From positions 1,364,001 through 1,428,000 of the forward strand of contig NZ_CP113913.1 of assembly GCF_029395355.1 (NCBI RefSeq): DNA of 64,000 nt. Reading direction: 5' to 3'. Under the pieces are notes generated by a model. That model ran no database searches and was not told where the DNA came from. It saw only the letters and a program-made list of their open reading frames with translations. Of this stretch, positions 15,679-56,137 are shown in pieces. The stretch comes from Bifidobacterium sp. ESL0800 (lineage in GTDB: Bacteria; Actinomycetota; Actinomycetes; Actinomycetales; Bifidobacteriaceae). The translations under genes and the position numbers were made by a program. The first letter of the stretch is position 1; each line of letters starts with the position of its first letter.

Positions 15679-15948
15679 CTATCGACGAAGACCAAGACGC
15701 TCGACCAAGGAGCGGTAACGGTTGATGTCGACCTTCTTCAGATAGTTGAGAAGACGACGACGATCGCCGACCATCAGCAGCAGGCCACGACGAGAGTGGT
15801 TGTCGTGCTGGTGGCTCTTCAGGTGCTCGGTCAGATCGGAGATACGCTTGCTCAGCAGCGCAACCTGAACCTCGGGAGATCCCGTGTCGCCTTCGTGCGT
15901 CGCATACTTGGTTACGATCTCGTGCTTTTCTTCAGCCGTAAGTGCCAC
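15679..15948 (-). CDS. rpsO: 30S ribosomal protein S15
   Basis: 89 residues, the exact family length, starting [20 protein letters not shown] and with the conserved [25 protein letters not shown] and [12 protein letters not shown]. It binds 16S rRNA helix 22 and helps form the 30S platform. The start is the GTG at 15948 with AAGGAGG 5 nt upstream; the longer open frame upstream is not part of the gene. Confidence 0.98.
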
Positions 15949-16130
15949 GGCATCCTCCTTATAGTTGCTGCGCGGTGCCGCCGGCATTATGCCGAAGCGC
16001 TCTCTATCCGCGGGCGAATACACGCCAAGTTTCAAGTATAGGAACAGGTACGGATGAATAGACATTCATGTTTCCATCAACGGTCATCGCCCCGATATCT
16101 GACTATCCGTCGAGCTGTCGCGAACCGGAA

Positions 16131-16309
16131 CGATGCGATGAAAATCAGCGCGAATCAGCCTCCGAATCATGAGAATGCTCACACCACCGATTGAACCTGC
16201 GAGGAAAATCAGCAAAAACACCGATAAATCCTGATTTTCATCGCATCTTCATTTGGGCTTGCGAGGAAAATCAAGAATCTGGGACGAAAATGCTGATTTT
16301 CATCGCATG
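16131..16309. repeat. period-62 hairpin array, family 1 (TGCGATGAAAATCAG type)
   Basis: Left arms at 16134 (TGCGATGAAAATCAG), 16198 (TGCGAGGAAAATCAG) and 16260 (TGCGAGGAAAATCA); right arms CTGATTTTCATCGCA at 16231-16245 and 16293-16307. Spacing between like arms is 64 and 62 nt for left arms and 62 nt for right arms. The first 17 bases (16132-16148) are identical to 56024-56040. It lies downstream of the membrane-protein gene at 16327 and upstream of rpsO. No open frame or transposase is linked to it. Confidence 0.8.
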
Positions 16310-16326
16310 ATCGAAATCGATATGCG

Positions 16327-17088
16327 TCAGACGGCGGCGAGCAGACCGCTGAAGAGAACGATCAAGAGGGCGATGCCTTCGATGACGAAGTACATCAGGA
16401 ACGAGGCCCAGCTACGGGTCAGCACGTTCAACGGCGAATCCTTCCTGATGCAGACAAGCAGGCCGACGAAAACGATCGCGTAGACACCCGCCGCGATCAA
16501 CGCCGCGATGATGCCGAGGTTCGCCGCGTTCGGCAGCATGGATGAGGAACCGTACATGACGTAGGTGGAATACCAGAACTGGAATTTCAGAAGCGAGACC
16601 CCCGCGATCAGCTGTTCGAAAGCCAGCAGAAGCAGGAACAGGATACGCCACAGCCAGGCATGTGCCTCGACGAAAGAAAGCGCGAAAGTGGCGAGGGCGA
16701 AGACGGTCACCGCCCACGAGACCAGCGCAACACCCTGCGGCGCAAACGGGCTCAAGAGCTTGACGATCTGTGTGGTGTGACGCACGGCGAGCACACGCCC
16801 GAACCAGTAGGGGCCGATAATCGCGACCAGCAGAATGACCAGGTAGACCACCCAGCGTATGGGGCGGAACTGGCTGCGCTTGATGTCGGCCAGGGAAAGG
16901 TCGGTCTGTGGGATGGAAGCCTCGGGGTGCTTGGAAACGCTGATCTTCTCGACCTTGCCTTCCACGATCTCGACGGCCTCGTTGCGCTTTCGCGTTTTCT
17001 CGGCCTTTTGGGCGACGCTGGAAACCGGCGTCTTCTGCGCAGTATCTTGTGAGGACTTGCGGTCTGCATCTGTCGAATCATTCGTCAT
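16327..17088 (-). CDS. polytopic membrane protein of unknown function
   Basis: I do not recognise the family. The 253 residues begin with about 75 polar, mostly charged residues (with KVEKISVSKHPEASIPQTDLS), then about six membrane segments: VVYLVILLVAIIGPYWFG, VSWAVTVFALATFALSFV, WRILFLLLLAFEQLIAGVSL, LGIIAALIAAGVYAIVFVGL and, at the end, FLMYFVIEGIALLIVLFSGL. I prefer ATG 17088 to the one at 17094, because GAGG stands 7 nt before the second and only 1 nt before the first. It is flanked by tRNA-Gly and rpsO; nothing nearby suggests a substrate. Confidence 0.75.
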   Translation of the reverse strand: MTNDSTDADRKSSQDTAQKTPVSSVAQKAEKTRKRNEAVEIVEGKVEKISVSKHPEASIPQTDLSLADIKRSQFRPIRWVVYLVILLVAIIGPYWFGRVLAVRHTTQIVKLLSPFAPQGVALVSWAVTVFALATFALSFVEAHAWLWRILFLLLLAFEQLIAGVSLLKFQFWYSTYVMYGSSSMLPNAANLGIIAALIAAGVYAIVFVGLLVCIRKDSPLNVLTRSWASFLMYFVIEGIALLIVLFSGLLAAV

Positions 17089-17244
17089 GGCCATGCCTCA
17101 TTGATCTGATGAACCTTCTGTGCATTGCCCCATCAAGGTTTCCGGCGTTACCAGCGTCAATCACATCGTTCGTGACACCGAAAACGACGGCGAGGCGATA
17201 TCTTATACAACGCTATAAGTTCGCAAATTCATTTACCGCCGCAA

Positions 17245-51037: not shown

Positions 51038-51206
51038 GACCACTTTCTGGCACAATCCCAAACGAATGCAAGAAAACGGCCGCTGGCAGCCGCTAAATGA
51101 CCGTTTTCCGGCACAGACTGCCTGAAATGCAAGAAATAGGCCGCTTATTACAACCCGTCAGTGTCCACTTTCTGGCACAACGACTCACCGATGCCAGAAA
51201 GTGGAC
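51038..51206. repeat. period-62 hairpin array, family 2, three units
   Basis: Six ~15-nt arms alternate strictly in orientation. Left arms: GACCACTTTCTGGCA (51038), GACCGTTTTCCGGCA (51099), GTCCACTTTCTGGCA (51163). Right arms: TGCAAGAAAACGG (51067), TGCAAGAAATAGG (51128), TGCCAGAAAGTGGAC (51192). Like arms are 61-64 nt apart. In the third unit the arms pair perfectly; in the others they pair imperfectly. Sequence between arms is not conserved. It lies between rplS and the small unit at 51285. Confidence 0.82.
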
Positions 51207-51556: not shown

Positions 51557-51700
51557 AAATTAATTAAACGTATCCGTCACGCCAAAAATTACGGACATAC
51601 CGGCAAATAACCGCATCAAGGATTCACGATTCGCAACCCGTAGTCTGCGCCTGCCGACTTCAGGATTGAAAGCCGCCATCGCCGGAATCGTACATTTCTG

Positions 51701-51844
51701 ATGCCCGGTTTGCCAGATGTGTCTGGTTTGCCGGTCGTGTCTGGTTTGCCGGTCGTGTCTGGTTTGCCGGTCGCGCCCAGTTTGCCAAGTATGCCCAGCT
51801 TGCCAGATATCCGGTTCGCCAAGAATATCCGGTTTGCCGGCAAT
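51701..51844 (+). repeat. eight 18-nt tandem repeats just upstream of the permease gene
   Basis: Units follow the pattern (A/G)TG(C/T)C(C/T)GGTTTGCC(G/A)G; three central units (51719-51772) are identical GTGTCTGGTTTGCCGGTC. The frame starting at ATG 51701 (71 codons, SGLPVV-type repeats) stays open to a TGA at 51914-51916 that overlaps the permease ATG as ATGA. There is no ribosome site before ATG 51701, so I do not call it a gene. Confidence 0.75.
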
Positions 51845-51912
51845 ATCGGCAACGTCAACCGCGCGTTGCGCAATGCGCCGACGCCACGATACGCCGTTCA
51901 TGAGGAATCATC

Positions 51913-53720: not shown

Positions 53721-53952
53721 GTCCGTTTTCTTGCATTCTCAATCATCGATGCTAGAAAACCGCCACTCACAGCCCCGCAATGGCCGGTTTCTTGCATAAC
53801 CGAACACAAAAGCAAGAAAACAGCCGCTGATGACTCCTCAGTAACCACTTTCTTGCACCGCTGAACGCAAAAGCAAGAAAACGGTCACTGGCTGCTTCTA
53901 ACTGAACGGTTTTCGGCAAATCCGATTGCTAATGCTGAAAACCAATCAATAG
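53721..53952. repeat. period-61 hairpin array, family 2, four units
   Basis: Left arms GTCCGTTTTCTTGCA (53721), GGCCGGTTTCTTGCA (53782), AACCACTTTCTTGCA (53843), GAACGGTTTTCGGCA (53904), spaced exactly 61 nt. Right arms TGCTAGAAAACCGCC (53750), AGCAAGAAAACAGCC (53811), AGCAAGAAAACGGTC (53872) and TGCTGAAAACCAATC (53933), also 61 nt apart. It fills most of the 321 nt between the permease and ATPase genes, so it would lie inside any common transcript. Same family as 51038-51206. Confidence 0.85.
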
Positions 53953-55941: not shown

Positions 55942-55965
55942 GCCAAGCCGATCCGCCGATTCAGT

Positions 55966-56011
55966 GCGTTGAAAAGCAGATGCTTGCTACGCGCTCTCTG
56001 CTTTTCAACGC
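55966..56011 (+). terminator. terminator of the ABC transporter unit
   Basis: 15-bp perfect stem GCGTTGAAAAGCAGA / TCTGCTTTTCAACGC with a 16-nt loop, 24 nt after the ATPase stop codon. Little T tract follows, so it may also be bidirectional or act by the stem alone. Confidence 0.75.
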
Positions 56012-56023
56012 AACCCAGCCGAC

Positions 56024-56137
56024 GATGCGATGAAAATCAGCATGATCAGCCGATTTCCGTGATTTTGCTCGCATGATCAATTGAAGTTGCGAGCAAAATC
56101 AGCATTCCAAGCCTATTTCCGTGATTTTCATCGCATC
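56024..56137. repeat. period-62 hairpin array, family 1, nested palindromes
   Basis: Left arms TGCGATGAAAATCAG (56026) and TGCGAGCAAAATCAG (56088); right arms GATTTTGCTCGCA (56061-56073) and GTGATTTTCATCGCA (56121-56135). Like arms are 62 nt apart. The outer arms pair with each other (GATGCGATGAAAATCA with TGATTTTCATCGCATC) and the inner arms pair with each other (GATTTTGCTCGCA with TGCGAGCAAAATC), giving a nested fold. It lies between the convergent ABC and DUF2207 genes. Confidence 0.85.

Follow-up and report, generated by a model that had tools for sequence, protein, structure and literature searches.

Candidate binding-site arrays of AbiEi-like, nuclease-like proteins in Bifidobacterium

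A stretch of 64,000 nucleotides (nt) from Bifidobacterium sp. ESL0800 (contig NZ_CP113913.1, positions 1,364,001 to 1,428,000; this whole stretch is referred to as the window) carries intergenic arrays in which short words alternate with their reverse complements, one of them at 16134-16307. Such arrays are probably strings of double-stranded DNA binding sites for proteins that combine an AbiEi-like winged-helix part with a restriction-endonuclease-like part, each protein with its own word, and would be replaced as blocks when the protein allele changes. Array geometry, word diversity, the flanking of the protein gene and the agreement of word with protein were established by comparison of genome sequences. 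From these we infer that the proteins bind the arrays, that the nuclease-like domain cuts or nicks DNA, and that the arrays are mobile and spread through break repair or gene conversion. The likely partner of the arrays with word W1, judged from its gene neighbourhood and homologs, is a protein of 327 amino acids (aa) encoded outside the window.

The array at 16134-16307 consists of three units of 48-50 nt, separated by 14-nt spacers and repeated with a period of 62-64. Each unit comprises a 14-nt word, an inner segment of about 20 nt and the reverse complement of the word. The word is W1, TGCGATGAAAATCA, with the consensus TGCGA(TG, GC or GG)AAAATCA.

16134..16183 (no strand): array unit 1 (50 nt), W1 TGCGATGAAAATCA, inner segment, reverse word (decayed, placed by eye)
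16184..16197 (no strand): spacer, 14 nt
16198..16245 (no strand): array unit 2 (48 nt), W1 arm 16198-16211, inner segment of 20 nt, W1 reverse arm 16232-16245
16246..16259 (no strand): spacer, 14 nt
16260..16307 (no strand): array unit 3 (48 nt), W1 arm 16260-16273, reverse arm 16294-16307

A first-pass annotation of the window had proposed a hairpin-type array at 16131-16309, with like arms 62-64 nt apart and alternating orientation. This was recovered: forward W1 arms begin at 16134, 16198 and 16260 (spacings 64 and 62), and reverse arms occupy 16232-16245 and 16294-16307, a third, decayed one ending at 16183 (by eye). The 17-base arm reported there as identical to one 40 kb away is GATGCGATGAAAATCAG; it occurs exactly at 16132 and 56024, and as the complement at 16231. 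In the window's own genome (G000, 2.25 Mb, one contig), TGCGANNAAAATCA with up to 1 mismatch was found at 69 places versus 5 for the reversed pattern, and two-armed W1 units numbered 16 versus 0 in the reversed control. The canonical W1 layout places the word at 0 (+), 34 (-), 62 (+) and 96 (-). Two-armed W1 units were present in 9 of 189 family genomes.

For a scan independent of any word, 40-64 kb from each of 13 related Bifidobacterium genomes were searched for inverted-repeat centres, and shuffling in 3-base blocks served as control. The scan yielded 129 centres versus 10 in shuffled sequence. Centre pairs within 120 nt numbered 34 (17 at 30-31 nt, 3 at 25-25.5, 14 at 55-116), and the shuffled control gave none. 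Period and alternation persist when more copies are aligned, so the observation passes the refutation test set in the first-pass annotation. Arm words with this geometry number at least five, one of them at period 61. In the clade of 13 genomes (G000 and G095-G106), the pattern AAAAKCA-N20-TGMTTTT matched 344 units (1 to 46 per genome), and outside it one match was found in each of 12 of the other 99 genomes; the reversed control gave 0 in the clade and one match in each of 4 other genomes. When the gap was freed to 4-34, the clade total rose to 452 (reversed control 30), so about three quarters of the units have a gap of 20. At the loci retrieved (n = 145) the gap was 20 in 127 units, 10 in 6, 19 in 3, 22 in 2 and 11-13 in 7, several of the last being nested inside a 20-gap unit; a gap of 10 is one helical turn below 20. 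Searching with the AAAAKCA core biases unit counts, a bias from which the word-free scans are free. Mean W (A or T) content across the 62-nt unit peaks at a period of 10.3; because the two outer tracts are set by the search pattern, evidence for this phasing comes from the inner tracts only.

The same loci carry different words in different species, and the earlier proposal that spacing is kept while the arm word is replaceable was borne out at rpsO, orn and rplJ, where one geometry holds across species. Word labels at these loci were given by eye; beside W1 they include W4 (CAGTGAGAAAAGCACC), W5 (TGCGACCAAAAGCACG) and W3 (TGCGTTGAAAAGCAGA). Upstream of rpsO, W1 is present in G000 and G097 and in decayed form in G104, W4 in G095, G096, G102 and G100, and W5 in G101 and G105; no array was seen there in G103, G098, G099 and G106. 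Between orn and a helicase gene, W1 was assigned in G000 and G097, W3 in G103 and G106, W5 in G104 and G105, and W4 in G102, G098, G096, G095 and G100; G099 has one W1-like and one odd unit there, and G101 nothing but decayed remnants. An array precedes rplJ in 12 of 12 species retrieved (G100 left out). There the sister species G000 and G097 differ (W1 versus a W3-like word), and in G098, G102 and G105 the words W5 and W4 occur together in mixed arrays.

Identity at orn was compared among the 11 labelled species (G099 and G101 dropped). Intergenic identity was 0.62-0.91 for same-word pairs and 0.34-0.58 for different-word pairs, with coding flanks at 0.85-0.92 throughout. In the pair G103/G106 the intergenic region (0.911) is more similar than the coding sequence (0.860); in G000/G106 it is less similar (0.52 versus 0.91). 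On these alignments, the pattern shows that arrays at this one locus, orn, were replaced as blocks between conserved genes. G106 has a long branch in the species tree, yet is 85-91% identical to G000 at orn, a closeness that suggests exchange of chromosomal DNA.

The word follows one protein. The gene at G000:101203-102183 (327 aa) is enclosed by W1 arrays at 101084-101193 and 102368-102477, and a third W1 array (103494) lies behind the next gene. Close homologs (54-100%) were found in 10 of the 13 clade genomes, all beside an aminotransferase gene (10/10) and 7 of 10 with an Rce1-like protease gene within the retrieved stretch. Inverted-repeat centres lie to either side of every one of the 10 syntenic orthologs, and the 500 nt of each flank contain one word 2 to 7 times and the other words not at all or once. 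The flanking word is W1 in G000, G097, G095 and G096, W5 in G104 and G105, W3 in G106 and G103, and W4 in G102 and G100. In a protein tree that also includes three W6 paralogs, the groups coincide exactly with the words (4 changes, the minimum; none of 200 shuffles was as low), three of the five word groups having two members only. The word is incongruent with the species tree, in which G106 and G100 are sisters; their proteins join those of G103 and G102. For G106 and G100 this tree rests on about half the columns, and two of its inner branches have support of 0.63-0.64.

The resident protein's word also recurs at distant loci: at orn in 8 of 10 genomes, at rplJ in 6 of 9 and at rpsO in 5 of 8, together 19 of 27 versus 7.0 +/- 3.4 expected from shuffling (p 0.00065; labels by eye, decayed and W3-like arrays counted). 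Misses were G095 and G096 (0/6), G097 at rplJ and G104 at rpsO. Genomes with a close ortholog contain 21 to 46 units (10 genomes), those without it 18, 1 and 11 (one-sided p 0.007). The check proposed in the first-pass annotation, whether word clusters go with a particular protein, thus gave a positive answer, the word tracking the allele of one protein.

Homologs at E 1e-5 were detected in 94 of 112 Bifidobacterium genomes. For analysis of their flanks, 50 homolog loci were used (30 from among the matches listed, and 20 clade paralogs chosen from a longer list), with 97 genes as controls; these were drawn from array-bearing regions of the clade and show 6 close spacings of 25.5-31 themselves. 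A word of at least 13 nt was common to both 450-nt flanks at 32 of 50 homolog loci versus 3 of 97 controls (p 3e-16; orthologs 9/10, genus homologs 9/20, clade paralogs 14/20). Centres occurred on both sides at 23 of 50 loci (orthologs 10/10, clade paralogs 9/20, genus homologs as given below) and on at least one side at 37 of 50, versus 33 of 97 controls. Adjacent spacings in homolog flanks were mostly 30.5-31.5 (37), followed by 25.5 (6), 62-63 (5) and 36-37 (4). The flank words vary by locus, for example TGCAGAGATAATCACG at G106:671473 (L218) and TGCGGCAAACCGTACTCT at a G079 locus (L205). A Collinsella homolog (30% identity) has TGTCTCGATCTGTAACA arrays on both sides, with centres 40-40.5 nt apart. 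One flank of the G103:117511 homolog (L233) contains four exact tandem copies of a 51-nt unit, which is a recent expansion beside an AbiEi-like gene.

The N-terminus of the 327-aa protein matches the AbiEi-type winged helix weakly (AbiEi_4, E 5e-5) and PADLOC AbiEi at 6.6e-7; AbiEi_4 was matched at E 0.1 or better by 10 of 15 family members. In the C-terminus, E204, D240, E254, D256 and K260 are invariant in 15 of 15 aligned homologs and may form an active site, as in a candidate PD-(D/E)XK nuclease. REase_MTES_1575 was matched weakly, by 4 of 15 members (best E 0.028). A PDB sequence search with the protein returned one chance-level match (E 0.58), and NCBIfam contained no family for it. The protein is less conserved than its aminotransferase neighbour in 7 of 9 comparisons with G000. 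No adjacent AbiEii (DUF1814) toxin gene was found beside the ortholog loci. A RAYT/Y1 transposase is an unlikely partner, since none of the 13 clade genomes has a PF01797 match, compared with 7 of 112 genomes across the genus. A viral origin was also rejected: viral contigs contained no exact W1 unit, their 27 pattern matches included no relative of the 327-aa protein, and plasmid records gave one match, in Collinsella.

For discrimination between double-stranded sites and RNA stems, pairing and covariation were scored. Tracts at positions 18-20 and 29-31 pair far below the shuffled level (78 units; 0.12 versus 0.47 at position 18). Where both sides are all-A or all-T, the combinations are A..A 20, T..T 16, T..A 2 and A..T 0; the remaining 40 units are mixed in one or both tracts. 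Across word families the arms covary (position 5, 0.91 versus 0.42), as expected from both arms carrying one word. Within families (126 units: W4 52, W1 41, W5 21, W3 10, mixed 2), little covariation was seen at the arm positions open to this test, a set without positions 8-14, which the search pattern fixes. With little covariation within families and anti-complementary A/T tracts in the loop, the arrays look like double-stranded protein sites rather than RNA hairpins, and an RNA stem or cruciform was rejected on the covariation result. The label hairpin is therefore probably misleading. The rough consensus of a tract-oriented unit is GAAAAGCACC-AAAA-nnGGCCCn-AAA-nGGTGCTTTTC (62 of 78 units). 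In W4 and W5, conservation extends over ~22 bp, from about -1 to 20; W1 is less strongly conserved, and in W3 the stretch stops near 16.

Gene calls for array placement were made with a custom script. None of 51 arrays lies inside a called gene, and the 49 with both neighbours are 34 tandem, 14 convergent and 1 divergent. Median distance is ~53 nt to a neighbour's 3' end (64 listed distances) and ~134 nt to a 5' end (36). Tract polarity relative to transcription (38 versus 23) has no clear bias. At 16134-16307 the array lies between the gene ending at 16327 on the minus strand, whose stop is 19 nt away and at whose 3' end it therefore stands, and rpsO.

16327..17094 (minus strand): upstream gene, open reading frame of 255 aa, no Pfam family at E 0.001
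15679..15999 (minus strand): rpsO (ribosomal protein S15), downstream of the array; start codon approximate (PF00312, E 2.7e-36)

Over ~380 bases (15679-16059), rpsO and ~100 upstream bases are 96-98% identical in eight clade species and 89% identical in G100 and G106. This stretch is possibly an S15 leader; no Rfam family was matched there.

The proposed mechanism is as follows. Each protein would recognise its own word, with a predicted site of ~22-23 bp made of the word and, in most families, the adjacent A/T tract. Neighbouring sites would point in opposite directions, and since 62 bp make six turns at 10.3 bp, the period would place bound monomers on one helix face; a ~22-23-bp site with alternating gaps of ~6 and 10 (or 4 and 12, by site placement) would give 62. 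Arrays of its own word flank the protein gene on both sides, and further array copies are found at 3' ends of other genes. When another allele takes over the protein locus, distant arrays would be replaced as blocks by its word. In the simplest reading, the arrays would be dispersed strings of AbiEi-type operators. Block replacement, the nuclease-like domain and the agreement of resident protein with distant arrays together suggest spread by cutting and copying.

Several observations weigh against this. The AbiEi match is weak (23.8 bits, cut-off 25), the nuclease match is weaker still, and a single-sequence fold model reached a predicted local distance difference test score (pLDDT) of 35.6 and was not used. 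G095 and G096 have a W1 protein but W4 arrays at all three loci, and the gene of G095 contains an in-frame stop. Arrays occur without a homolog at E 1e-5 in G099 and G101, and G098 has distant homologs only. For the W2 arrays of the window, no partner was found in their own genome. No centre is present in the 500-nt flanks of 13 of 50 homolog genes; centres on both sides occur in 4 of 20 homologs from outside the clade, and also in 2 of 97 control genes. Slight covariation was detected at W5 position 5 (p 0.027) and W3 position 6 (p 0.03). Inspection by eye of array edges in G000 for target duplication or palindromic extension gave no consistent picture, and neither a target-site duplication nor a clean empty site was seen (by eye).

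It is possible, though we would hold it tentatively, that the AbiEi-nuclease fusions are array-rewriting drives: each allele would cut or nick foreign or related-word arrays, and repair from its own flanking arrays would convert conserved array sites chromosome-wide to its word.

The binding-site account needs to be set against an autoregulated orphan AbiEi-like regulator, with flanking arrays as operators and distant arrays as a regulon retained for control of 3' read-through or neighbouring promoters, no mobility, and ordinary co-evolution of words. Similar inverted repeats serve autoregulation by AbiEi and Rv2827c (PMC7319586). The position of the arrays between transcription units (0 of 51 in genes, 1 of 49 divergent) and the presence of an array or remnant at orn in 13 of 13 species and at rplJ in all 12 retrieved (by eye) would also suit a regulon. 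We nevertheless regard this explanation as unlikely, with block replacement at orn (91% intergenic and 86% coding identity in G103/G106, 52% and 91% in G000/G106), mixed-word arrays and the differing rplJ words of the sisters G000 and G097 standing against it. A topological role, in which the arrays would serve as strong gyrase or nucleoid-protein sites like E. coli bacterial interspersed mosaic elements (BIME-2), with selection for phased A/T tracts and the flanked gene incidental, is very improbable. The 10.3 peak in W content, partly forced by the search pattern, and the location at 3' ends agree with it, as does the existence of a gyrase motif, published as a 130-bp pattern with a 10.75-bp GC periodicity (PMC6379681); exact words, word-protein congruence and the flanking of one gene family would be left unexplained, and in the W2 units of the window the loop shows no clear A/T tracts (by eye). 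Least probable is that the arrays act as RNA, as 3'-end hairpins for termination or mRNA protection like those proposed for some repetitive extragenic palindromes (REPs): the arms are complementary and the neighbour's 3' end is near (median ~53 nt), but arm positions hardly covary, loop tracts are anti-complementary, tract polarity is not clearly tied to transcription, no terminator-like site (G+C-rich stem followed by a T run) was found at 15900-16500, the stretch scanned, and an Rfam scan of the window matched a tRNA solely and none of the arrays.

In organisation, the closest analogue of the arrays and their proteins is the REP/BIME system with its REP-associated tyrosine transposase (RAYT), in which extragenic repeats alternate, the gene is flanked by cognate repeats and co-evolves with them, and hybrid arrays occur (PMC2817692). 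Alternating extragenic repeats, a fast-evolving protein gene flanked by co-varying cognate repeats and hybrid arrays are common to both. The protein is not: it is AbiEi-like and nuclease-like here, with no Y1 transposase match in the clade, and the arms look like double-stranded words rather than a selected stem, in Actinobacteria (compared with PMC2817692). Complementary mutations, by which arm pairing is recognised in REP-RAYT, were little seen within families, with two weak exceptions. Streptococcus AbiEi bends the DNA on binding to two 23-bp inverted repeats that lie 3 bp apart, and the Rv2827c promoter has four 23-bp repeats with gaps of 4 and 13 and a period of 63 (PMC7319586). The arrays and their protein resemble these systems in the weak AbiEi-type match, the predicted tandem inverted ~23-bp sites and the period (62 versus 63), and differ in the lack of an adjacent toxin, the extra nuclease-like domain and the 344 units over 13 genomes (PMC7319586). 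The Collinsella array spacing departs from the 62 period that is compared with Rv2827c. With the E. coli gyrase motif and BIME-2 the arrays share helix-phased A/T and intergenic position, and differ in their exact, protein-specific words (PMC6379681).

The C-terminal E...D...ExDG..K pattern (by eye) and the weak Pfam match are shared with REase_MTES_1575 nucleases; unlike in these, the domain is fused to an AbiEi-like part and has repeat arrays alongside. These nucleases are presumably related to Vsr and DUF559. In literature surveyed at the level of titles and abstract beginnings, no description of the pairing of arrays with an AbiEi-like nuclease was found, which does not prove novelty.

Further arrays in the window are listed below.

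51040..51204 (no strand): W2 array (TGCNNGAAANNGG), period 61, spacers 14 nt
53723..53943 (no strand): W2 array, period 61, last part decayed (end by eye)
55965..56012 (no strand): unit with another word (W3 type, TGCGTTGAAAAGCA), opens a mixed array
56026..56073 (no strand): W1 unit, 13 nt after the W3 unit
56088..56135 (no strand): W1 unit, next after 14 nt

The arrays at 51 and 53.7 kb had been assigned the same 62-nt period; their period is 61. Shared word parts (TGC and a GAAAA run at a similar position) had also been noted. The likeness is wider than noted for four words, with the core AAAA(G/T)CA, which is also the search pattern, whereas W2 differs more, its GAAAA lying one base nearer TGC. 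Of 112 genus genomes, 12 contain the W2 core TTTCNNGCA-N14-TGCNNGAAA, and 11 of these belong to the clade; the reversed control matched 9 genomes, once apiece. Among the 112 genomes, W2 cores are most numerous in G103 (26); the two homologs found there carry other words, and a W2 partner is either absent or escaped recognition. The best lead to a W2 partner is a G097 paralog (L225) with three W2-like TGCTGGAAAAC in its flanks. Short direct tandem repeats, GGTTTGCCGGTCGTGTCT-like, lie at 51700-51845 upstream of a transporter-like gene and are unlike the arrays (by eye). Elsewhere in the genome, at G000:113604-113713 (L011), a unit with AGAGATAATCAC stands 14 nt behind a W1 unit; AGAGATAATCAC is also the word flanking the paralog at G000:778212. 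Outside the clade, G014 (C1:534466), G019, G032, G059 and G074 have in common a nearly identical single unit, AAAATCAACGAAAAATARTTAGTTTTCTGATTTT. In distant phyla, one exact W1-pattern match each was found in Uhrbacteria (L023) and Flavobacterium (L030).

These results offer a partner protein for a class of unexplained extragenic repeats, and with it a second, apparently unrelated solution to the task of REP-RAYT. With four words matched to alleles of one syntenic gene, and further words at its paralogs, DNA recognition and repeat turnover become directly testable. A role is suggested for the widespread orphan genes annotated as AbiEi-like. If the fusions do act as drives, they would constitute a homing-like system with many targets, present in two classes of Actinobacteria and unrelated to RAYT.
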